Shown piece after piece: positions 2,827-39,430 of a DNA stretch of 39,430 bases. The translations under genes and the position numbers were made by a program. Position 1 is the stretch's first letter. The number at the start of each line of letters is the position of its first letter. This stretch comes from a virus. The stretch spans positions 1 to 39,430 of the IMG/VR virus record IMGVR_UViG_3300036852_000102; one strand, written 5' to 3'. Below the pieces are notes generated by a model. It worked only from the letters and a program-made list of their open reading frames with translations. It was not told the DNA's origin and ran no database searches.

Positions 2827-3083
2827 TTCGCGCGCCAGGGTATACGGGTACGCCCAACGATGATGACGTCGCCAGGCTCCAGTGGCGTCGAGACGGTCAC
2901 ATCGCGCACGCCTCCATCGCGCTCGATGCGCGTCCCGTTGGTTGAACCGAGATCGGTGATCGTGGCGCTGAAATCGACGCCGAGGTGAACCATCGCGTGA
3001 CGTCCACTGACGTAGTGATCATCCACGACGACATCGCAATCCGGCCAACTGCCAAGGATGACGTTGGCCGGCAGCGCGCTCAC
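2823..3083 (-). CDS. FHA-domain protein
   Basis: An 86-residue protein that is a single forkhead-associated domain. Diagnostic features are a glycine-starting strand (LGSWPDCDVVVDD, 10-22), the SGRHA segment (26-30) and the DLGSTNGT motif (44-51), followed by a PGDVIIVG strand. FHA domains bind phosphothreonine peptides, and in actinobacteria they partner with Ser/Thr kinases such as PknB. The Arg that usually follows the first Gly and contacts the phosphate is replaced (G11-S12), so binding may be altered. GTG overlaps the TerS stop as GTGA. The gene sits between both terminase subunits. No kinase is encoded in this genome, so any phosphorylated partner would come from the host or be another phage protein. 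Confidence 0.85.
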   Translation of the reverse strand: MSALPANVILGSWPDCDVVVDDHYVSGRHAMVHLGVDFSATITDLGSTNGTRIERDGGVRDVTVSTPLEPGDVIIVGRTRIPWRAK

Positions 3084-3607
3084 TTCGCCGCCAGCTCGCC
3101 CGGGTCGGGGCCCGGCTCGACGCGGCCCGGGCGCGGGCCGTACGCCACGATCAGCGTGTCCAGCGTCGCTTCGAGCAGGCCGCGCACGGGGCCTGCGTTC
3201 TGCATCGCGTCGTGACGCTCGGCGACGAGGTGCTTGTCCAGCGCCGTCGCCGCGATGATCATCAAATTGCGCTGGTCGGCCGTCGGCGGCCGATCCACCT
3301 CTTTCTCGTTATAGGTGTTGTCCTTTCCGCCGAAATTGTAAATGACCGTCGGGCTGACCATTGCGGCCAGTGCCTCCTGCGCTCTCTGCAAGAAAGTCGC
3401 GCTCAATACGGCGCGCTGAGATGCCAATTGGGCGCGCCTGTCTTCGACCGCCTGACGCGTACGCTCAGCCGTCTGACCTCCGAAAACCTCCCGCTTGATG
3501 ACCGCGACAGTGGTCCGACTCACGCCATGAATGCGCGCGAGTCCGCTCACATTCGCGCCATCCTGACGCAAGTCCGAAATGATCGCTTCGCGTTTTTCCG
3601 GGGTCAT
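3080..3607 (-). CDS. Putative terminase small subunit (HTH protein)
   Basis: A 175-residue protein with an N-terminal helix-turn-helix (about residues 4-38, GLARIHGVSRTTVAVIKREV), a long helical middle rich in Ala and Gln (about 45-85) and a C-terminal region of unknown fold. This order, DNA-binding head followed by helical oligomerisation segment, is typical of phage TerS proteins that recognise the packaging site. Its position two small genes before terL supports the call. ATG at 3607 overlaps the upstream stop (ATGA). A transcription regulator is the main alternative, but the packaging context makes TerS more likely. Confidence 0.65.
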   Translation of the reverse strand: MTPEKREAIISDLRQDGANVSGLARIHGVSRTTVAVIKREVFGGQTAERTRQAVEDRRAQLASQRAVLSATFLQRAQEALAAMVSPTVIYNFGGKDNTYNEKEVDRPPTADQRNLMIIAATALDKHLVAERHDAMQNAGPVRGLLEATLDTLIVAYGPRPGRVEPGPDPGELAAK

Positions 3608-6407: not shown

Positions 6408-6437
6408 AGACTAATCGTAGGTCCAACTACCTGTCAA
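6408..6437 (-). promoter_or_regulatory. Leftward leaderless promoter
   Basis: On the minus strand TTGACA (6437-6432), an 18-base spacer and TAGTCT (6413-6408) are followed by seven bases and then ATG at 6400. The -35 lies in a TAGTTGAC sequence, and a second TAGTTGG copy follows inside the spacer. This matches the promoters seen at 11.16, 14.12 and 33.05 kb. It should drive the small genes, RusA and possibly the packaging operon. Confidence 0.75.
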
Positions 6438-8108
6438 CTACAGAATCTGGCCAGCAGCGCGCATCGCCGCCACGGCCGGGTCGATGCGCGCCGACGCCAG
6501 TGCGATCGAGATCTGGTCGCTGACCTCCCCTGAGCGCATGTCCTCGGTCACCGCGATGCCGAGACGTCTGGCGTACCCCAGCTGCGCCTCGGACGGCCGG
6601 CGCGCCCGCCAGGATCGCTCACGACGGGCCGTCACCTCTTCGTCGTGGGTCACGTCGCCCTCAGCCCACGACATCGCGTAGGACAGATCTGCGATGTGGC
6701 GCACCACGTGTCGTCCTGTCCCGTGCCGCTGACCGTGCATCGCGGTCACGTCGTACAACCCGGTCGCGTTGCGCGTGATCACGATCAACCGCTCGCCCGC
6801 GCTCAGGAACCAGGTCCCGCCGCGCGTACGATTCCACGCCGAATGCGAGCCGTGGAAGAGGTCGACCTCTTCGCTGACGAGCGGCCCGTCCGCCCCGCCG
6901 AACTCTTCGACGCCGGCCAGCTCGCCCTCGTCGGCCGACTCCAGCCCATCGAGCGTGACCGTCTCGTCGTCGGCCAGTTCGGCGGCGTCTTCCTCGGCGT
7001 ACAGGTCCAGGTCGGCGCCGGCCAGCTGGACCACGGCGTTCAAGGAGTGCCGCGCCGACGCGCCCACCACGTCCAGTACCAAGCAGTCGCGCTTACCCGG
7101 GTGGAGCCTCAATCCGCGCCCGACCATCTGAATCCACAGGCCGGGGCTTGTCGTCGGCCTGGCCACCACGACGCAGGAGATCATCGGCAGGTCGGTGCCC
7201 TCGGTGAGTACCGCGCAGTTCACGAGCCATTGGACGTCGCCCGCGCGGAAGCGCTTCAACACGCGCCGGCGCTCGTCGATCGGCATCTCGCCGTGCACCA
7301 CGTCGGCCGTGAAGCCCGCCTCAGACAGCACCTGCGCCACGACCCCGGCCGAGTGCACCGTGGGCGTGAAAACAACGCCCTGGCGCTCTCTGGCGTGCTC
7401 TGCGATGGCCTTCGCGATCGCCTCGGGCGCCAACGAATCCTCAAGGGCCGTCCCGAGCGCGTCGGCCTGGTAGTCGCCACGCGACTTTTTGACCTGGGAC
7501 AGATCGAGCGTAGCCACCCGTACCCGTACGCCGCGGGGACGCACCAACCAGCCCTCGGAGATCAACTCGCCGATGGTCTTGCGGAAGACGACGTCCTGCC
7601 AGACCGACCCGAGCGCCGTCCCGTCTCCCCGGACCATGGTCGCGGTGACGCCGAGAACCGGGATGCCGCCCGGCACCATCGCCCCGTAGTGCTCCAGCGC
7701 CGTCATGTACGTCCGGGCTGTGGCGTGGTGACACTCGTCGATCACGATCAGCCCGACGCCTTCGACCATGCGTCGGCGCCGCTGTGACGCCAGAGTCTGA
7801 ATCGAGCTGACGATCACCTGCGACCGGGTCTGGTTCCGGCCAGCCTGCACGATGCCCGGTTGCAGGTGGGGCGCGACGTCCATCAACGTGCCGTAGGCCT
7901 GGCTGATCAGCTCGTCGCGGTGCGCCCAGATCATCGCGCGTTGCCCACGCCTGGCGCTCTCCCGTAACCACCGGTCGATCACCGAGGCGAAGATGACCGT
8001 CTTGCCGCCTCCGGTCGGCACGACGTGCGCCACACGAGCTAACCCGGACCGCCACGCCGTGAAGGTCGCCTCGACGGCTTCGGTCTGGTAGTCGCGCAGC
8101 TTGATCAT
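6438..8108 (-). CDS. SF2 DEAD/DEAH-box helicase
   Basis: A 556-residue superfamily 2 helicase of the type found in phage replication modules. ATG at 8108-8106 is chosen because GAGGAG lies five bases upstream; a GTG two codons earlier would overlap that site. Motifs: Q-like RDYQTEAV (5-12), Walker A PTGGGKT (31-37), motif II VIDECHHA (about 122-129), motif III GVTAT (about 155), motif IV-V region with VNCAVLTEGTDLP, and motif VI QMVGRGLRL. The C-terminal 150 residues include an acidic stretch and a SEAQLGYARRLGI segment common in phage helicases. It probably unwinds DNA alongside the primase-polymerase, from which it is separated by the candidate origin. Confidence 0.93.
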   Translation of the reverse strand: MIKLRDYQTEAVEATFTAWRSGLARVAHVVPTGGGKTVIFASVIDRWLRESARRGQRAMIWAHRDELISQAYGTLMDVAPHLQPGIVQAGRNQTRSQVIVSSIQTLASQRRRRMVEGVGLIVIDECHHATARTYMTALEHYGAMVPGGIPVLGVTATMVRGDGTALGSVWQDVVFRKTIGELISEGWLVRPRGVRVRVATLDLSQVKKSRGDYQADALGTALEDSLAPEAIAKAIAEHARERQGVVFTPTVHSAGVVAQVLSEAGFTADVVHGEMPIDERRRVLKRFRAGDVQWLVNCAVLTEGTDLPMISCVVVARPTTSPGLWIQMVGRGLRLHPGKRDCLVLDVVGASARHSLNAVVQLAGADLDLYAEEDAAELADDETVTLDGLESADEGELAGVEEFGGADGPLVSEEVDLFHGSHSAWNRTRGGTWFLSAGERLIVITRNATGLYDVTAMHGQRHGTGRHVVRHIADLSYAMSWAEGDVTHDEEVTARRERSWRARRPSEAQLGYARRLGIAVTEDMRSGEVSDQISIALASARIDPAVAAMRAAGQIL

Positions 8109-10874: not shown

Positions 10875-11099
10875 CTACGCCGTCGGCGACGCCTGCGACA
10901 GCGGCACAGGGTACGGGGCGGGAGAGTCGCCCTGACGGGCGTACCACTGGTCGACCACGGGTCGACCAGCCGCGATCAGTTCGCGCAAGATCTCGGTCAT
11001 GGGTCGGTTCTGCTTGTTCGCTCTCTCCTCCACGTACCGCCGCGTCTCGGCGGTCTCCAGTAGGACAAGCTGCTCGGTGTAGCGCGGCGCCAGCGCCAT
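10875..11099 (-). CDS. Ribbon-helix-helix-like DNA-binding protein
   Basis: A 74-residue protein with ATG at 11099 and a clear GGAGG eight bases upstream. The segment YTEQLVLLETAETRRYVEERANKQNRPMTEILRELIAAG has a short strand followed by two helices and the MTEILRELI signature of Arc/CopG-type ribbon-helix-helix proteins. A Pro-rich tail follows. The gene is transcribed away from the rightward early operon and lies beside a palindrome (CTAGTTGACTAG, 11160-11171) that overlaps both promoters. It is a good candidate for an autoregulator of this divergent control region. The downstream primase-polymerase may share its transcript. Confidence 0.7.
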   Translation of the reverse strand: MALAPRYTEQLVLLETAETRRYVEERANKQNRPMTEILRELIAAGRPVVDQWYARQGDSPAPYPVPLSQASPTA

Positions 11100-11156: not shown

Positions 11157-11193
11157 ACACTAGTTGACTAGGCACTCACAGGGCAAGTACGCT
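11157..11193. promoter_or_regulatory. Interlocked divergent promoters with palindromic operator
   Basis: Plus strand: TTGACT (11164-11169), 18-base spacer, TACGCT (11188-11193), driving the operon that starts at 11244. Minus strand: TTGCCC (11186-11181), 18-base spacer, TAGTGT (11162-11157), driving the ribbon-helix-helix gene. The -35 of the first abuts the -10 of the second, so the promoters should compete. The palindrome CTAGTTGACTAG (11160-11171) spans this junction and could be the operator. Confidence 0.7.
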
Positions 11194-13933: not shown

Positions 13934-14187
13934 ACGACGTCATCTGGGTTGTGATGCCGCGCGCTCAGGCCGCACACCTCGTTGTCGTGCCGGCGCGGGG
14001 TACGCAGCGCGTCGCGCTGTGCGGCTACGACCCGACCAGGAACCGGCACGAGACCTGGCTGCCGTGGACGGGCGACCGTGGTCACTGCTCGCGCTGCGAG
14101 CGCCGAGCAGCTGAGTCGCCAGTTGACAACCTAACTGGTGACCAACTAGCGTCCTACCTGTCACCCATCGATGAGGAGCAGACATGA
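13930..14187 (+). CDS. Small zinc-ribbon-like protein
   Basis: An 85-residue protein starting at ATG 13930, overlapping the previous stop (ATGA). It contains LCGYDP (about 33-38) and HCSRCER (about 54-60), a C...C-x2-C arrangement of a small zinc ribbon. The MNDVIWVVMPRAQAAHLV strand-helix precedes this. The last part of the gene contains a promoter for the next gene, so its C-terminal residues (SPVDNLTGDQLAS) may be shaped by that signal. Confidence 0.7.
   Translation: MNDVIWVVMPRAQAAHLVVVPARGTQRVALCGYDPTRNRHETWLPWTGDRGHCSRCERRAAESPVDNLTGDQLASYLSPIDEEQT
14123..14152 (+). promoter_or_regulatory. Internal rightward promoter before 14184 gene
   Basis: TTGACA (14123-14128), 18-base spacer and TAGCGT (14147-14152) lie inside the 3' end of the preceding gene. 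Transcription would begin near 14160, leaving a short leader with GAGGAG before ATG 14184. The flanks again have AGTTGAC and CCAACTAG sequences like the other phage promoters. It would raise expression of the possible ssDNA-binding protein. Confidence 0.7.
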
Positions 14188-16878: not shown

Positions 16879-16930
16879 CACGCATACGTGGCTTCTCGCA
16901 TTGAGAGAAGCCACGTATGCGTGCTACCTT
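16879..16930 (+). promoter_or_regulatory. Promoter overlapped by 19-bp perfect inverted repeat
   Basis: The arms at 16879-16897 and 16905-16923 are exact complements (19 bp) around a 7-base loop. The promoter TTGAGA (16901-16906), 18-base spacer, TACCTT (16925-16930) uses the loop and right arm as its -35 and spacer. A protein bound to the repeat would block RNA polymerase. Both arms contain ATACGTG, shared with the palindrome at 16582-16609. The hairpin lies before the expected start of transcription, so it acts as DNA rather than RNA. Confidence 0.7.
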
Positions 16931-16936
16931 TACCTC

Positions 16937-16996
16937 ATGCGGTTGAGTCGGCCGACTCCCGCAGAGCTCTCCCCCTCACCCAAGGAGTCATCATGA
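16937..16996 (+). CDS. Possible leaderless 19-residue leader peptide
   Basis: ATG at 16937 lies six bases after the TACCTT -10, so an mRNA from this promoter would start at or next to this codon. The 19-codon frame (MRLSRPTPAELSPSPKESS) ends in a TGA that overlaps the ATG of the membrane protein gene at 16993. The geometry matches the other leaderless starts. It may exist only to deliver ribosomes to the next gene. Evidence is positional only. Confidence 0.35.
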   Translation: MRLSRPTPAELSPSPKESS

Positions 16997-17538
16997 ACCG
17001 CATCACCGCAGCGAAGATCGTCGGTTACACCATCGCCACCGTGGCCGCGGCGAGCAGCTACGGCCACCAGGTCGACCTGCTTACTCACGCGCAGCTTGAC
17101 CCGCTGTTCGGGATCATCCCGAGCGAGTGGGTCGTGCCCAGCACGGTCGACCTGCTCGCCATCATCGCCCTCATGGTCCGCACCGACCGCGAGGCGACCG
17201 CCAAGACGAAGCTCCTGGCGCTGATTCCGCTGATCCTGGCCGGCAGCCTGAGCGTGGCGGCCAACGTGGCCACTGCGCACACCAAGGTCGGCGTCGTCGT
17301 CGGCGTCTGGACGGTGCTGGCGTACCTGCTCGCCGAGTGGTTCGTCTCGATGATGGAGCGCAAGTCGGCCGACGCCGACCTCACGCCCCGCCAGATCGGC
17401 GCACGCAAGGCCGCGGCCACCCGGGCGAGCCGGACACTCACTCCGCGCCAGATCGCCGCCCGCAAGGGCGCCGAGACGCGCCGCCAGCGCAAGTTGGACC
17501 GCGAGCTTGAGGCGATCACGGCGAGCGCCGGCGCCTGA
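16993..17538 (+). CDS. DUF2637-like membrane protein
   Basis: A 181-residue protein with AAGGAG before ATG 16993. The N-terminal 120 residues hold four hydrophobic helices (near 8-25, 48-62, 75-95 and 99-117), as in the DUF2637/Spd-type membrane proteins found on actinomycete plasmids and in phages. The cytoplasmic tail has two copies of LTPRQI(G/A)ARK(A/G)A(A/E)TR (about 130-144 and 149-163) followed by a basic end. These repeats look like small DNA- or protein-binding motifs. It is the last gene of the rightward block and is under its own repressible promoter. Function in phages is unknown. Confidence 0.7.
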   Translation: MNRITAAKIVGYTIATVAAASSYGHQVDLLTHAQLDPLFGIIPSEWVVPSTVDLLAIIALMVRTDREATAKTKLLALIPLILAGSLSVAANVATAHTKVGVVVGVWTVLAYLLAEWFVSMMERKSADADLTPRQIGARKAAATRASRTLTPRQIAARKGAETRRQRKLDRELEAITASAGA

Positions 17539-17543
17539 TCGGC

Positions 17544-17590
17544 GACACAGAAGAGGCCTTGCCCGTCGCTGGCAAGGCCTCTTCTGTGTC
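17544..17590. terminator. Bidirectional stem-loop between convergent blocks
   Basis: GACACAGAAGAGGCCTTGCC (17544-17563) and its perfect complement (17571-17590) form a 20-bp stem with a 7-base loop. It lies exactly between the stops of the rightward block (17538) and the leftward late genes (17602). No T-run follows on either side, but the symmetry and location argue for termination in both directions or for preventing read-through. Confidence 0.8.
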
Positions 17591-32221: not shown

Positions 32222-32533
32222 TTACGTATCGATCCGAGCCGTGGCGCAGGGCGCGAGTACGGCGACGTCGTTGCCATCATCCCTGGTCGTGACCACAAAA
32301 GATACCGGGACACCCTCGCCGTCGTACTGAACGATCTCGCGGCCCACGTAGTCGTCGCGCACGACCGCTTCGACTTTGGCCCGGGTCCCGGCCGGCACCA
32401 TCGGCGCGGTGAGCCCGCGCAGGCCCGGGCAGGCGTGAAAGCGGGTATGCGGCGCCGACTCGTGCGTGACCTGCGTGAGGTCGCAGTTCGGGCACTCCCA
32501 GCGTTGTTCAGGTCGCAGCAGGGGTACGCGCAT
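32222..32533 (-). CDS. Putative zinc-ribbon protein
   Basis: A 103-residue protein. ATG at 32533 is the first in-frame start after the terminator stem at 32558-32598. The N-terminal ligands WECPNCDLTQVTHESAPHTR then FHACPGLRG resemble a zinc ribbon (C-x2-C...H...H-x-C). The rest is beta-rich (VPAGTRAKVEAVVRDDYVGRE, VPVSFVVTTRDDGNDVAVLA). It lies among head genes and may be a minor capsid or regulatory protein. TACGCT six bases before the ATG may be a -10 for a leaderless transcript, but no -35 is seen. Confidence 0.7.
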   Translation of the reverse strand: MRVPLLRPEQRWECPNCDLTQVTHESAPHTRFHACPGLRGLTAPMVPAGTRAKVEAVVRDDYVGREIVQYDGEGVPVSFVVTTRDDGNDVAVLAPCATARIDT

Positions 32534-32550: not shown

Positions 32551-32598
32551 CAAAACAGCACCACCCCCGTCTCGATGCTGGAGAGACGGGGGTGGTGC
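32551..32598 (-). terminator. Rho-independent terminator after tiny-gene cluster
   Basis: A perfect 16-bp stem (32558-32573 and 32583-32598) with a 9-base loop is followed on the minus strand by TGTTTTG (32557-32551). This is the classic form of an intrinsic terminator. It lies between the last of three tiny ORFs and the zinc-ribbon gene, so those ORFs probably form a separate transcription unit. Confidence 0.8.
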
Positions 32599-32637: not shown

Positions 32638-32772
32638 TTACCCGGCCGCCGGTGGCCGGGGGAGGCGCGGAATGGGGTGACGTCGACCCGACTTGAGCGG
32701 CCGCGTGTCGGTCGGTTTGTTGCCGCCCGGCCCGGTGCCGGCGGCGCCGGCTGGATGCGTGGTCTCGCGCAT
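32638..32772 (-). CDS. Tiny Pro/Gly/Arg-rich protein (44 residues)
   Basis: The third of three tiny ORFs. ATG at 32772 overlaps the preceding stop by one base (TGATG). The sequence (MRETTHPAGAAGTGPGGNKP, then basic and proline-rich) has no secondary structure motifs that I recognise. The stop TAA lies 40 bases before the terminator stem. Reality is supported by coupling and by its place between promoter and terminator, but not by any family. Confidence 0.45.
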   Translation of the reverse strand: MRETTHPAGAAGTGPGGNKPTDTRPLKSGRRHPIPRLPRPPAAG

Positions 32773-32906
32773 CACTTGCCCTTCTGGCCAGACGTGTTCT
32801 TCGGCGGCGCCTTGCCGGCGCCGGTCGAGTCACCCTTGCGCGTGGTTGAGCCGCGCGTCGGTGGAGGCTGATTCTCCTTCGGACCGTCTTTCGATGATTT
32901 GCTCAC
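32772..32906 (-). CDS. Tiny Lys/Pro-rich protein (44 residues)
   Basis: The second tiny ORF. GTG at 32906 overlaps the first ORF stop as GTGA, and its own stop overlaps the next ATG. The sequence (MSKSSKDGPKENQPPPTRGS, then TTRKGDSTGAGKAPPKN) is highly basic and disordered. Such proteins can bind nucleic acids or ribosomes, or be packaged with DNA. No family is recognised. Confidence 0.5.
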   Translation of the reverse strand: MSKSSKDGPKENQPPPTRGSTTRKGDSTGAGKAPPKNTSGQKGK

Positions 32907-33031
32907 TTTTCGCCCTTCTTTCGCTCGCGCTCGGCACGTTCGGCCTGGCGCCTCTGCTCGGCTGCCACCGCGTCGCGGTCGGCCTGACGCTCGCGGTCGG
33001 CCGCGGCCTTGTCGTCGTCCCGTTGACCCAT
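32903..33031 (-). CDS. Tiny charged helical protein (42 residues), leaderless
   Basis: The first tiny ORF. ATG at 33031-33029 lies exactly seven bases after the TACCCT -10, so its mRNA should begin with the start codon. The protein (MGQRDDDKAAADRERQADRD, then AVAAEQRRQAERAERERKKG) is one continuous charged helix with equal numbers of acidic and basic residues, ending in Lys. It heads a three-gene unit ending at the terminator near 32551. Function unknown. Confidence 0.6.
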   Translation of the reverse strand: MGQRDDDKAAADRERQADRDAVAAEQRRQAERAERERKKGEK

Positions 33032-33038
33032 TTGCGTA

Positions 33039-33075
33039 AGGGTAGTTGACGAGAGCGTGGAGGGTCAACTAGCAT
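33039..33075. promoter_or_regulatory. Interlocked divergent promoters (33.05 kb)
   Basis: TAGTTGAC (33043-33050) and GTCAACTA (33064-33071) form an inverted repeat with 13 bases between. Minus promoter: TTGACC (33068-33063), 18-base spacer, TACCCT (33044-33039), then seven bases to ATG 33031. Plus promoter: TTGACG (33046-33051), 18-base spacer, TAGCAT (33070-33075). Each -10 overlaps the -35 region of the other, so firing should be mutually exclusive. Confidence 0.75.
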
Positions 33076-33081
33076 CAGACC

Positions 33082-33181
33082 CAGACGTACTACGGAACCG
33101 GCGCAGCGGGCAGGGTGAGGCCCAAGCAGGACCGGAGCAGAGAGAATGAGCACCCCCGGCCGGGGGTGCTCATTCGTTTTC
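33082..33181 (+). ncRNA. Candidate phage small RNA, about 100 nt
   Basis: The rightward promoter at 33046-33075 should start transcription near 33082. A strong hairpin with T-run ends at about 33181. In between, no ATG occurs before the hairpin itself, and a GTG at 33115 lacks a ribosome binding site and would read through the terminator. The transcript therefore seems to be non-coding. It lies opposite no gene, between the tiny-gene cluster and the 33208-33603 gene. Confidence 0.5.
33144..33180. terminator. Strong terminator, 16-bp stem with T-run
   Basis: GAATGAGCACCCCCGG (33144-33159) and its exact complement (33160-33175) form a perfect inverted repeat, followed by GTTTT on the plus strand. 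It would end the candidate small RNA. On the minus strand it lies 33 bases after the stop at 33208 and could also end the capsid transcript, though the bases after it are less T-rich in that direction. Confidence 0.85.
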
Positions 33182-33207
33182 CTCTATGCGCGGAACCTGC
33201 GCGCGAG

Positions 33208-33603
33208 TCAGGCCCCGTACTCGGCGATCAGCTCCGCCTTCGTGGCCGCGTTGGCTACGACCGGGTCTTCGCCGCGACTGACGGCGTACGCGACCCATTC
33301 GCCCTTCGCCGCGCTGTCAGTCGGCCGGGACAGTGGTGCTGAGACAGACGTCGCCCCGACCGACGCGTTCATGGACGCCTCAAGCGCTGCCAGTTCGGCA
33401 TCGGACGCCTCATCGTCTGAACCGTCGTCGAGCAGCGGATCGGGCATGAGTGGCGCGCCATCGTCGTCGATGATCGGCTTGCCGCCCGCGCTGACCAGCA
33501 CGCACAGGCCCTTGCGCACCTTCTCCGCGAGCAGCGGGGTCAGCGGCCAGTCGACTTCCCAGACGTTGCCGCCTTCGCCCCGGAAAAACACCGTCTTCGA
33601 CAT
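33208..33603 (-). CDS. Hypothetical head-region protein
   Basis: A 131-residue acidic protein with GGAG before ATG 33603. The N-terminal 55 residues form a small beta domain (TVFFRGEGGNVWEVDWPLTP, KGLCVLVSAGGKPIIDDDG). A low-complexity acidic linker (LLDDGSDDEASDAELAALEA) and a short helical C-terminus (KGEWVAYAVSRGEDPVVANA, TKAELIAEYG) follow; the latter resembles the SAP-like/HeH extension of phage head proteins. It is the last gene before the 33144-33180 terminator. Confidence 0.75.
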   Translation of the reverse strand: MSKTVFFRGEGGNVWEVDWPLTPLLAEKVRKGLCVLVSAGGKPIIDDDGAPLMPDPLLDDGSDDEASDAELAALEASMNASVGATSVSAPLSRPTDSAAKGEWVAYAVSRGEDPVVANAATKAELIAEYGA

Positions 33604-33612
33604 CAGGTCTCC

Positions 33613-33993
33613 CTACGCGCCGGCCGGCCAGAGCAGCGCTTCGATGGTGCCGGTCATGGCGGTCTCGAAATCGATCCACATCGAGCCGTCGGCCTGGAGC
33701 ACGCGAGCCGAATCGAACGGGCCGAAGTACTGCACGCCACTGGTCGCCGCCACGGTGACCGTGACGTCGCCCTGACCGGCGAGCAGGGCCGGCGGGCTGG
33801 CCCCGGCCTTCACCGTCAGCACGTTGGTACTGCCCTCCGTGTTGGCCACCCGGATCAGCGTGCGTTCCGGCTGCGCGTTGGCGATGGTGACGCCGTTGGT
33901 GACGAGCGTCGCATCGATGGTGGTCGCGCCGGTCGTGGCGATGAGGTTGCCGTTCTTGACCAGCGACCGGTAGGTGACTGCGGTACGTGCCAT
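33613..33993 (-). CDS. Capsid decoration-like protein
   Basis: A 126-residue beta-rich protein directly after the major capsid gene, with GGAG before ATG 33993. Strands include TGATTIDATLVTNGVTIANA, RTLIRVANTEGSTNVLTVKA and DVTVTVAATSGVQYFGPF. Small beta proteins in this position usually decorate the capsid surface. It shares length and strand pattern with the protein at 27541-27903. Confidence 0.75.
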   Translation of the reverse strand: MARTAVTYRSLVKNGNLIATTGATTIDATLVTNGVTIANAQPERTLIRVANTEGSTNVLTVKAGASPPALLAGQGDVTVTVAATSGVQYFGPFDSARVLQADGSMWIDFETAMTGTIEALLWPAGA

Positions 33994-34002
33994 GCCATTC
34001 TC

Positions 34003-34842
34003 CTAGGTGATCGACGCGGTCAGGGTGGCCAGCTCTTCGGGCCGGACGACCTTGGCTCCGTAGAGGTGCAGGCCTCGCACCGCGTCGGCGAACGTGGTCT
34101 GGAGCCGGAGCGCTTCGGTCTGGGAGATCTGGTCGGCCATCGTGATGGCGCCGGACACGCCAGCTTGAACGATGTAGTCATCGCCGGTCACGTTGATGCA
34201 GTTGTTCGATTCGTAGACGTCGAAGCCCGCGGCCCGACCGACGATGCCGTTACGCAGCCCCTCGGTGGTGCCGGACGCGTCGGCCCGCACGAACTTGTCG
34301 TTGTTCAAGAGCAGGCCGTAGTACCACGGCGGGACGATCACGTACCGGCCCTCGTTGGGCACGTCGGCCTGCGCGAGCTTGGTCCGCAGGTTGATCAGGC
34401 CCGAGTACGCCAGGTCGGCCGTGTTGATCGTGGTCGTGCTGATCGCGTTGGCAGAGTTGGTCGCCGTGTAGAGCGACGCGACGTAGTTGTCGACTTCGAG
34501 CGCCAGCTTGTACGCCGCGCGCCGCATGGCCACGGTCATGACGTTGCCGCGCGCCTGGCGCTTGTCGATGTCGTCGACCTTGAAGGCGAAGGACTTCGCG
34601 CGGTCGATCAGCAGCGTCTGGCCAGCGTCGTTCAGGTCCTCGTACGTCAGCGTGGACCCGGCGGTGTAGGTGTTGATCGTCGGGTCACCGATGGACGAAA
34701 TGTGAACGGTGTCCCCCATCTGGGAGATCTCGCCCTCATAGTCTCTGTTGACCACGTCGGGACCGGCGAAGACCAGTACGCGCTCCAGCGCTTCGAGCAG
34801 GACGGCCGACCAGATCTCCGGCCGGAATCGAATGATACTCAC
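34003..34842 (-). CDS. Major capsid protein
   Basis: A 279-residue HK97-fold coat protein of the P22/actinophage type. GTG at 34842 has GAGG five bases upstream. Typical features: MSIIRFRPEIWSAVLLEALE start, VVNRDYEGEISQMGDTVHIS, INTYTAGSTLTYEDLNDAGQ, IDRAKSFAFKVDDIDKRQAR (spine helix), and NEGRYVIVPPWYYGLLLNND with AAGFDVYESNNC near the C-terminus. No N-terminal delta domain is visible; a separate scaffold gene lies just upstream. It is the most abundant head protein. Confidence 0.95.
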   Translation of the reverse strand: MSIIRFRPEIWSAVLLEALERVLVFAGPDVVNRDYEGEISQMGDTVHISSIGDPTINTYTAGSTLTYEDLNDAGQTLLIDRAKSFAFKVDDIDKRQARGNVMTVAMRRAAYKLALEVDNYVASLYTATNSANAISTTTINTADLAYSGLINLRTKLAQADVPNEGRYVIVPPWYYGLLLNNDKFVRADASGTTEGLRNGIVGRAAGFDVYESNNCINVTGDDYIVQAGVSGAITMADQISQTEALRLQTTFADAVRGLHLYGAKVVRPEELATLTASIT

Positions 34843-35833: not shown

Positions 35834-37798
35834 CTACAGAATCAGCGTCCCGTACCAGTCGCTACCCAGCATGAGCTCTTTGCCGATCCACATGTCGTTC
35901 CGGCCCATGCCCGGCCGGCGCCCAAGCTGCGACAGGTCGTAAGCGGATACGCGACCACCCTCCAGCCCCGTGGCCAGATAGTCCTGGGCCAGAGTCAACT
36001 GTTCGTACACCTGGTCGTAGGTCATGCCGGGGAAGCGCTCGAGCAACGCCGCGCGACCCCCTCCCGTGAGTCGCGCCAGTTTGGTCCGCAGAGACCTGAA
36101 ATAGCGTCGCACTTCTGCGTTGCTACGGAAGTCGAAACCCTGACGCGCCCACGTGTACCCACCTACGTCGATGTTGGCGTGCACCTCAACGTGATGCACG
36201 CCAGAACGCCGATACCAGTCGAAGAGGTTGCGGTTGAACTGGTTGGCGAATCCGGTGCCCTGGTACTTCCGCTCGATCGCCAACAGATCATGTTCGACGA
36301 TCAGTTGTCCATTGGCCTTTCTGGTAAACGTGCGCTGGAATGAGCCGATCAAGTGACCGTCCTGGAATATGCGACCACTCACACCTATTTGTCTACCTAG
36401 CCGTATGCTGGACGAGACGCGCGCGTCCAGTCCGCCGTATGTGCCGTCGATCGCCCGGCTGAGCGTCGAATTGAGTAGATCATCGGCCACCCTCCGCTGA
36501 CCTGCGGACAATCCTCGATCGATGTTCATGAGATCGCCGATCGGTCGAACGTCGCGGTTCGGCAACGGACCGACGCCGGCCGGCTCGACGTCGAACGCTG
36601 GCGTCGGTCTGGGCGCCGGAGTCGGCCGGAGTGTGGGGGCTGACGTCGGCGGTGCGTTGCCGGTGCGCTTGTAACCGAGGTCGATGCGCTCCCGGGATGG
36701 CTTACGGGTCAGTCCGAGATGCTCGTTCTCGGCGACGTGCGCCTTGATCGTCTCGGCGCGGCTCTTGATCCGGGCCTTGATCGCGGGCAGCGCCGCCGGG
36801 TCGATGGGCGCCGCTTCGCGCAGTCGGTCGGCGCGCTGGTCGCGTTCCAGCTGGCGCAGCTTCTGGCGGGCCGCGTCGCCCTGCGGGTCGGCGGTACGCG
36901 TGATCGGCCGGGTGACGCCGACGATGTAGGGCGAGACGCTGTGTCGGCACTGCGGATGCATCAGGCCCGCCGCGATGGCCTCCGAGAGCGTACCGGCGAC
37001 GTTGACGTCGACCAGGTCGGCTGACGCCTCGCTCTGGCGCTGGATCTGGCGCTTACCCGGGTGGCCTCCGGTCGAGAGGATCTTCCCCTCCCAGGGGCGG
37101 CAGCGCTGGCACTCCTGCACGGCGTCGCTGACGATGACCAGGTCGAGCCCTGCTTCACCCATCCGGTCGAGCTGGCCTTCGACCATCGATTGAGCCACCG
37201 TCGTCCGGGTGGCCATCTCGGTGTACCCGGCCAGGTTCCACCGTCGCCCGGCCGTGTCCGTGAAGCCCGTCACGCCCTGGCCGAGAAGGTCGTTCCAGGC
37301 CCGCTGAGAAGCCTGTAGCCGCGTGTGCGTACCGAGGATGACGTCCGGTGCCGCGCCGGCCGCGATCACCTTCTGGTACGCGTCCTCGGCCCACCGCGTC
37401 ATCGGCAGGTGCGTGCCGCGCAGCTTGAGCGAGAGCGCACCGGCGAGGCGTTGCTGCGCGGGCAGATTCGGCAACGCGCGCTCCACCCGATCCCGTACCG
37501 CCTGCGTCGCCGAACCCTGGAGCGCGCGCAGTGCCGACAGTCCGCCGGCCGCGTACGCCTCACGTACGGCCGCCGCGGCGGCGTCGCTGCCGAACTGCGT
37601 CAGGCGCCGGGTAAGGCCTTGCGTCCAGCGACGCAGGTCGCCGAGCGCAGCCAGCTTGTCCGCCTGCCAGGTCGGCGACTCGATGCCCTCACGCAGCCGC
37701 CGCGCGATCTCGACCGCGAGGCGTCGCTGCGCGTCGGCGTACAGCCCGGTCAGCTGCTCGGCCAGCGCGCGCGCCGCCTCGGTGTCCCGGGCGACCAC
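35834..37798 (-). CDS. MuF-type minor capsid protein fused to GNAT-like effector domain
   Basis: A 654-residue protein, GTG at 37798, three bases after the portal stop. Residues 1-300 are a phage minor capsid/MuF module: long helices, CQRCRPWEGKIL near 235 and the HPQCRHSVSPY motif near 280. A basic helical stretch (300-370) and a Pro-rich linker (375-410) follow. The C-terminal 240 residues contain a GNAT-like acetyltransferase pattern (VEHDLLAIERKYQGTGFANQ near 500-520, VHHVEVHANIDVGGY, ARQGFDFR). MuF proteins with toxin-like C-termini are known from phages and are packaged in the head, so this domain may be injected with DNA. Whether it is active is unknown. Confidence 0.85.
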   Translation of the reverse strand: MVARDTEAARALAEQLTGLYADAQRRLAVEIARRLREGIESPTWQADKLAALGDLRRWTQGLTRRLTQFGSDAAAAAVREAYAAGGLSALRALQGSATQAVRDRVERALPNLPAQQRLAGALSLKLRGTHLPMTRWAEDAYQKVIAAGAAPDVILGTHTRLQASQRAWNDLLGQGVTGFTDTAGRRWNLAGYTEMATRTTVAQSMVEGQLDRMGEAGLDLVIVSDAVQECQRCRPWEGKILSTGGHPGKRQIQRQSEASADLVDVNVAGTLSEAIAAGLMHPQCRHSVSPYIVGVTRPITRTADPQGDAARQKLRQLERDQRADRLREAAPIDPAALPAIKARIKSRAETIKAHVAENEHLGLTRKPSRERIDLGYKRTGNAPPTSAPTLRPTPAPRPTPAFDVEPAGVGPLPNRDVRPIGDLMNIDRGLSAGQRRVADDLLNSTLSRAIDGTYGGLDARVSSSIRLGRQIGVSGRIFQDGHLIGSFQRTFTRKANGQLIVEHDLLAIERKYQGTGFANQFNRNLFDWYRRSGVHHVEVHANIDVGGYTWARQGFDFRSNAEVRRYFRSLRTKLARLTGGGRAALLERFPGMTYDQVYEQLTLAQDYLATGLEGGRVSAYDLSQLGRRPGMGRNDMWIGKELMLGSDWYGTLIL

Positions 37799-37801
37799 GC
37801 G

Positions 37802-39275
37802 CTACCCCGCGTACGCGGGTACGGGCGCCGGATCGGGCTCACCGATGTCAAGCGGCCGCTTGGATGCCGGCCCGGCCGGCGGAACGCTGCCGTCGAACGC
37901 GGTCGGGTCCTCCACAGCCGGACCGTCGATCAGGTCGACCTCTTCGAGTACTGCCGCGTCGTCCCAATCGGGGTGCACCATGACCACCTTGGTCTTGGTC
38001 GAGACCGCCTTTGCCGCGTCGAGCAGCTGGACCGTCTTGGCCAGCGACTCCGGGTCCGGCGCCGCTTCGTCGGCCCATTCGACGTCGATCGGCTCGATGG
38101 CAACTGCACCTTTGTAGTGGGCCGCGTCGAGCTCCAGCGCGACCCGGGCCAGCCTACGCAAGGCGTCGCGCCAGTAAGCGATCTTGCGCAGTCGCGTCGA
38201 TTCGGTGCGTTCGCCGCGCTGACCCGCCTCCTTCGCCGTGATGGCCGAGCCTCCCGGGTCCTCGCCGAACGCGTCGGCCGAGAGTCCTGCGGTGCGCATG
38301 ATGACGCGCCAGGCGGCAGCCGCGGCGTCCAGGTGCTCGGTGGTCCTGATGGCGAACTGCGCCACCGTGATCGACATGCCCTGCGTCGGGTCGGTCAGCG
38401 CGTCAACGGTCTGGAACACTTCCTGCTCCATGTCGAAGCTGGCGCCGGCGCCCCGGCCGCCCGACTGGAGATACGCGCTCGGGATCACGAGACGGCCCTT
38501 GGCGAGTCGGATATCACGGATCAGGGACGACCAGGCTTCATCGAGCGCGTCCATCGGTCCCTCGGCGCCGGAGAAGTCGGAGCGGCCCAGGTTGGAGCCC
38601 CGGATCAGCCGATGTGGACGCATGTTCGGCACGTAGGCCACGTCGAGGTGTTCGACCGGGCGACCGGTCGCGCCGGCCGGGATGGCGCCGGCTTCGTTGA
38701 CGAGCAGCGCCAAGCGCTGGCACTCTTCGTCGCCGTAGTCGAGCGGCATCGGTACGCCGAGCCTGTCGGAGGTGCCGCGGTAGAGCGCGTGGTAGATCAC
38801 CGCGCCGACCCCTGGCGTCACCTCATGACGCTCCAGGTGGCGCAGCACCGCGCCGGCGTCGCCGTCGACCTCGCGCCAGAACGTCACCGCGGTCAAGATG
38901 CCGTAGCGCCACTCGGGTATCGCGGCGTCGGGCGGGATGGCCTCGAACAGCGGTACGTCGCTGATCGAGGTGTCGACGCAGACGCGCACGTACGCCCCGC
39001 CGTACGCCGAACACACCTCCGCCGCTTCGAGCAGGCGCGAGTGCACGCCGCCCAGGTCGAGGATGCCTTCAAGTCGTTCCTGTGCCGTTTTGTCGTCGCT
39101 GGTGAACGCCGGCAACTGAGTGAACAGCAGGTCCGCCGAGATCATCGCGATGTCGGCAGCCGCGGGAATGTGGAGCTTCGTGGTGTTCTGGCCGGCCGTG
39201 ATCGGCTGACCCCACCACTTCCGGGCGATCCAGCCCTGCACGCCGCCCCGGTACTGCGCCGGGTGATTGACCGCG
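37802..39275 (-). CDS. Portal protein (main part; N-terminus at 1-176)
   Basis: This is the rest of the portal gene, which reads from 176 to 1 and then from 39275 to 37802, giving 549 residues. Typical SPP1 gp6-like features include GWIARKWWGQPITAGQNTTK, ADIAMISADLLFTQLPAF, a YGGAYVRVCVD strand, RSDFSGAEGPMDALDEAWSS, and the C-terminal EAGQRGERTESTRLRKIAYW with ALRRLARVALELDAAHYKG. Portals form the dodecameric DNA channel and bind terminase and connector. An apparent start at 39409 in the contig tail is not real. The stop TAG lies three bases before the MuF start. Confidence 0.93.
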
Positions 39276-39401
39276 CCCATGTCGGACCCGAAGAACCGGC
39301 GGCCGATCGGCGCCGGCCCCGCCGGCCCGCCGTAGACGGCGGTCAGGTCGGCAGGGTTGCCTCCGTACCAGGCGCCCCACTCGCGGTAGTACGGCGTGGC
39401 C
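39276..39401. repeat. Terminal overlap, right copy
   Basis: Identical to bases 1-126; coordinates differ by 39,275. See the left copy for the interpretation as a circular assembly overlap. Confidence 0.93.
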
Positions 39402-39430
39402 CCCCCCACAAACGGCGGGGGCCCCCCGCC
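39402..39430. other. Unsupported contig tail
   Basis: After the exact repeat the sequence departs from the left end and becomes runs of C and G (for example GGCGGGGGCCCCCCGCC). It begins inside a hairpin of the portal gene and does not continue the portal frame found at 127-176. It is most likely an assembly or sequencing artefact, so it should not be translated. Confidence 0.8.

Follow-up and report, generated by a model that had tools for sequence, protein, structure and literature searches.

The 39,430-bp IMG/VR virus record analyzed here in full (the window; GC content 68%) carries within its late region two promoter-like sequences that form the mirrored halves of one perfect inverted repeat, the left one facing a small two-gene cassette and the right one a terminator-like palindrome. 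In the best explanation of this arrangement, held with moderate confidence, the late operon reuses in this repeat the divergent promoter and operator of a phage autoregulator, and the RNA of the right arm is an insulated by-product. The sequence itself establishes the dyad, both promoter matches, the hairpins resembling terminators and the cassette, as well as the recurrence of the module and its adjacency to a protein family; the roles assigned to them below are predicted.

Predicted Interlocked Promoters in the Late Region

The late genes of the window, from portal to the connector-like protein, are leftward (Table 1). Replication genes run leftward from ~11.1 kb, and a rightward block starts at 11.2 kb. 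The closest relative is G001 (capsid 77%), G009 is more distant, and L165 is a relative from Catellatospora coxensis. Scanning of viral contigs with the capsid yielded relatives that were for the most part distant and hardly informative on the intergenic region, and scanning with the connector protein yielded no relatives.

A preliminary description of this DNA reported a TTGACG-N18-TAGCAT promoter reading rightward, against the late genes. This promoter was found, opposed to the leftward head genes for portal, MuF and capsid. It forms half of a perfect inverted repeat, the other half being the opposed promoter (33068-33039). The sequence class of the right promoter demonstrably exceeds chance: the window contains five TTGACN-N16-19-TANNNT sites, all with a spacer of 18, compared with shuffle means of 0.43 for spacers 16-19 and 0.08 for spacer 18 (maximum 2 in 100), with two of the five sites being the arms of one dyad and hence not independent.

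Matches to the dyad were scored over 16 positions across the window. The four best are at 33043 (16), 11161 (14), 14120 (13) and 6412 (12), with all others scoring 11 or less, and all four are intergenic promoter sites.

Table 1. Coordinates of the features discussed, in window positions.
Feature	Position	Strand	Remarks
Portal	37802-39409		leftward late gene
MuF	35834-37798		leftward late gene
Capsid	34003-34842		leftward late gene
phrog_24894 protein	33613-33993		leftward late gene
Connector-like protein	33208-33603		leftward late gene
Perfect 32-bp palindrome	33144-33175		terminator-like on + (GTTTTCC tail), possibly weaker on -
Predicted right-arm transcript, ~100 nt, non-coding	33082-33184	+	between promoter and terminator
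Right-arm promoter TTGACG-N18-TAGCAT	33046-33075	+	-35 33046-33051, -10 33070-33075; predicted start near 33082
Perfect dyad TAGTTGAC-N13-GTCAACTA, mirror promoter/predicted operator	33043-33071		16/16 match
Left-arm promoter TTGACC-N18-TACCCT	33039-33068	-	predicted start near 33031; ATG 7 nt past -10
Cassette ORF 1, 42 aa, leaderless, MGQRDDDK...	32903-33031	-	ATG 33031, 7 nt past left-arm -10
Cassette ORF 2, 44 aa, GTG start	32772-32906	-	SD-like AAGAAGGG upstream; overlaps ORF 1 by 4 bp
Cassette terminator	32558-32598	-	16-bp hairpin, 9-nt loop, T-run on -
Third dyad, promoter TTGACA-N18-TAGCGT	14120-14148	+	13/16; before gene 14184
Second dyad	11161-11189		14/16; separates early leftward and rightward operons
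74-aa ribbon-helix-helix-like protein, predicted autoregulator	10875-11099	-	adjoins 11161-11189 dyad
Fourth dyad, promoter TTGACA-N18-TAGTCT	6412-6440	-	12/16; leaderless ATG 6400, 7 nt past -10

Recurrence of the Mirror Module

Viral contigs contain 18 matches to the exact dyad. The seven independent GC-rich contigs among these provide 14 flanks, 12 of which have T at position 6 of the -10 element (expected 17%, P 5e-8), and no offset near this position shows a comparable T bias in the same contigs. The generalized pattern ANNNTANTTGAC-N13-GTCAANTANNNT occurs at 34 loci in viral contigs, 18 of them with GC content of at least 60%, versus 34 loci for a control pattern with the same bases, none of which reaches this GC content (Fisher 3e-7). 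Since the overall counts are equal, the signal is confined to the GC-rich subset, where chance matches are rare; AT-rich matches were counted as chance because only the GC-rich subset separates the pattern from its control.

The arms were surveyed at 19 loci with GC content of at least 55% (38 arms). An ATG lies 6-9 nt past the -10 element, in a leaderless arrangement, in 21 of the 38 arms, and 13 more arms carry an SD-led ORF; the 19 loci include near-identical ones (L179, L190 and L192), so that the independent cases are fewer.

The mirror pattern has no match in 201 genomes of the L165 host family. The simple form, TTGACN-N18-TANNNT, is enriched in the Catellatospora genome (50 sites, versus 11 for the reversed control). 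The enrichment of the simple form in the host, together with the absence of the mirror pattern from the 201 genomes, indicates that the elements are of host type and that the mirror arrangement is probably phage-specific. As a separate observation, G009 (the L099 contig) carries at 33.2-36.1 kb four TTGACN-N18-TANNNT promoters in tandem on one strand that have a longer CTAC...GGTTAG-like pattern in common, which suggests a series of small genes, each with a promoter of its own.

A Small Protein Family Adjoining the Mirror Promoters

At most mirror loci, one arm encodes a small protein of the type RYTEQLV...S.AEVLR..I..GL. A profile seeded with seven of the loci, the others not being seeds, detects the family at 15 of the 19 loci at E <=0.002 (16 including L090, E 0.014), and the members sit no more than 320 nt from the mirror promoter. 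At that level the profile detects no member at 57 other loci fetched for other reasons. The mirror loci lacking a member are L182 and L186, which by eye encode other helix-turn-helix types, and L100, with no clear gene. The closest relative, G001, has neither the dyads nor the family protein.

In the window, a profile that excluded the product of 10875-11099 still recovers it, at E 5.9e-11 among the 628 window frames, the next being at 0.007. Comparison of this protein with Pfam RHH_1 gives 12.6 bits, below the cut-off of 20.5, and its best PDB profile match, VapB26, has an E-value of 0.02, below significance. The monomer model (mean pLDDT 71.5) shows weak matches to ribbon-helix-helix antitoxins in a fold search that is not significant. 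The sequence pattern of the family suggests a possible ribbon-helix-helix fold, with all of these searches below significance. Searching annotated phages with the regulator by tblastn gave no match, and its profile gave only weak scattered matches, in 13 of the 201 genomes of the L165 host family.

Genes of autoregulators typically lie beside a symmetric site that covers their own promoter, and gene 10875-11099 has such a site next to it. From this adjacency, its product is predicted to bind the dyads; against this speaks its distance of 22 kb from the dyad at 33 kb. The HTH_23 protein 3080-3607 was set aside as a candidate repressor, being encoded directly upstream of the terminase large subunit gene; this gene position makes it more likely to be the terminase small subunit. 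The terminase large subunit gene itself contains a perfect 17-bp inverted repeat with a 1-nt loop (1676-1710).

The Leftward Cassette

The two short ORFs facing the left arm sit among the late genes, and neither the 42-aa nor the 44-aa product matches a known family. At this place G001, G009 and L165 have no counterpart of the cassette and carry other genes, and the gene order differs among relatives. A promoter and terminator of its own within a late operon, both recognized by sequence, and absence from these relatives at the same place are features of a moron.

Directly left of the cassette, gene 32222-32533 (minus strand) encodes a 103-aa protein with CPNC-type cysteines. The protein belongs to no Pfam family and matches nothing in annotated phages, and 47 relatives of it were found in viral contigs. 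Scanning of 35 upstream regions of this zinc-ribbon neighbor (47 contigs) did not reveal the mirror-type promoter and showed few hairpins, none of them matching. Elsewhere in the window, perfect hairpins of 19 bp (16879-16923) and 20 bp (17544-17590) flank ORF 16888-17538, which matches DUF2637, a possible cassette with its own boundaries.

The Palindrome and the Predicted Right-Arm Transcript

The perfect 16-bp stem with a T-run, previously noted about 100 bases after the promoter, is indeed present. It forms a loopless palindrome, the arms of which exceed the longest loopless arm in 100 shuffles (12 bp), and as RNA it would fold into 14 bp closed by a GGCC tetraloop. The plus-strand tail GTTTTCCTCT ranks in the best 0.8% of window positions; the minus-strand tail TCTCTGCTCC, in the best 2%, is worse, yet not poor. 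The exact palindrome core has no match in viral contigs.

The 103-nt RNA delimited by promoter and palindrome has a minimum folding energy of -48 kcal/mol (z -3.8), mostly owed to the terminator stem. Among 40 arms compared, including those of the window, the right arm alone reaches a long hairpin ahead of a credible gene: its hairpin is 16 bp at +68, with 9 bp as the second longest within 200 nt. The presence of a promoter and an intrinsic terminator, recognized by sequence match and fold, makes a ~100-nt rightward non-coding transcript with its own boundaries plausible. Its only overlap would be with the intergenic stretch that follows the connector gene, which would limit any cis-antisense effect to late transcripts passing the palindrome.

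Proposed Mechanism and Alternative Explanations

From these features we infer transcription, repressor binding, the efficiency of termination and the absence of an RNA function, as follows. Two host-type (sigma-A-like) promoters would be interlocked back to back at 33043-33071. Each -35 element abuts the -10 element of the opposite promoter, so that polymerase would bind one at a time, and the host enzyme would use either the left or the right arm. The half-site TAGTTGAC is the predicted site of the 10875-11099 protein, which would regulate its own synthesis at 11161-11189 and also control 6412, 14120 and 33043; seated on the half-sites at 33 kb, the regulator would shut both arms. The left arm would transcribe the leaderless two-ORF cassette up to the terminator at 32598-32558. 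The right arm would give a ~100-nt non-coding RNA halted at the palindrome 33144-33175, which would protect the head genes against antisense transcription and might in addition terminate or reduce late transcripts reading into the switch from the opposite side. The original function of this palindrome may have lain with the late transcript. Most probably, the right-arm RNA is not a trans-acting regulator but an insulated by-product of the two-way switch. It is possible, as a tentative extension, that the terminated non-coding RNA of the right arm adjusts the switch, for instance by competition with the cassette for polymerase, the whole being an undescribed mirrored promoter/operator switch of GC-rich phages.

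A simpler arrangement, with a repressor site over a single leftward promoter, would make the right promoter a silent by-product of symmetry and the palindrome the end of the late head transcript. A perfect inverted repeat does yield mirrored TTGAC and TA automatically, the corresponding gene in G001 and L165 is likewise followed by hairpins, and the minus-strand tail of the palindrome is fair. However, the better tail is on the plus strand, no hairpin is evident at that place in L004, L166 and G009, and both arms of the module in other contigs show the extra T of the -10 element and well-spaced start codons, indicating that both are normally used. We regard this single-promoter arrangement as rather doubtful.

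The preliminary description had proposed a phage small RNA, and base pairing of the ~100-nt RNA with phage or host mRNAs would give it a function. The promoter of its own, the strong terminator and the lack of a credible ORF agree with this proposal, a terminated non-coding product is unusual among the 40 arms, and the late-operon cassette of P22 has a small antisense RNA (PMC2629481). Against it, Rfam gave only sub-threshold matches, no homologue and no conserved structure was detected, and the low folding energy stems mainly from the terminator stem. Target prediction, which the same description had recommended, found for the phage part no better pairing with translation starts than expected by chance (63% of shuffles were as good). 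The transcript unit itself stands as plausible, and a pairing function for it appears unlikely. Translation of the right arm would place a protein start inside the stem, through GGAG-N8-ATG at 33146. The earlier statement that no plausible ORF is present did not mention this SD-like GGAG, which is followed by a frame open for 209 codons and has a leader length like that of other SD-led arms. The start codon is, however, buried in the 14-bp terminator-like stem, and the codon-position GC of the frame (GC1 0.51, GC2 0.68) is the swapped pattern of the connector gene (0.70 and 0.51). The 209-aa ORF was rejected as an antisense shadow of this structural gene, in agreement with the earlier statement, and we consider translation of the arm very improbable.

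Comparison with Known Systems

In the bidirectional promoters of bacteria described by Warman, Grainger and colleagues, the two directions have a common -10 element and starts 10-23 bp apart (PMC12825309). The mirror promoter resembles them in its symmetric DNA, to which polymerase could bind either way to give divergent transcripts in competition (PMC12825309). It differs in that whole promoters interlock, -35 to -10, with perfectly symmetric 8-bp arms and no common -10 element, and the predicted starts (33031 and 33082) are ~51 bp apart.

Among actinobacteriophages, the portion of the cluster O mycobacteriophage study considered here reports a similar divergent leaderless SigA-like pair, PL1/PR2, and a promoter within the structural operon, PL2, driving a small leaderless gene; unlike the window, this portion describes no mirrored dyad or adjacent small regulator, and its 17-bp palindrome is a different repeat (PMC4351075). 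The ESAS promoters of cluster K are likewise SigA-like, with spacing of 17-18 bp and inverted repeats to which a protein may bind, and have a leaderless gene and a stem resembling a terminator close by; unlike the mirror promoter, they read in one direction and have a 13-bp start-associated sequence and another repeat sequence (PMC11373665, PMC3203893).

The ant moron of P22 is a late-operon cassette with small repressors and the sar antisense RNA (PMC2629481). The window likewise has an extra late-operon cassette and a short predicted non-coding RNA; sar helps control ant, whereas no target of the predicted RNA came to light and the predicted regulator is encoded outside the cassette (PMC2629481).

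No description of the mirror module was found in the open-access literature, to which searching was confined. To our knowledge, phages of GC-rich bacteria have few well-defined promoters and regulators. With the pattern ANNNTANTTGAC-N13-GTCAANTANNNT and the adjacent protein family, promoters, operators and probable regulators of such phages could be called straight from sequence. The mirror module would also lend itself to simple tests of how two polymerases compete for a single site.
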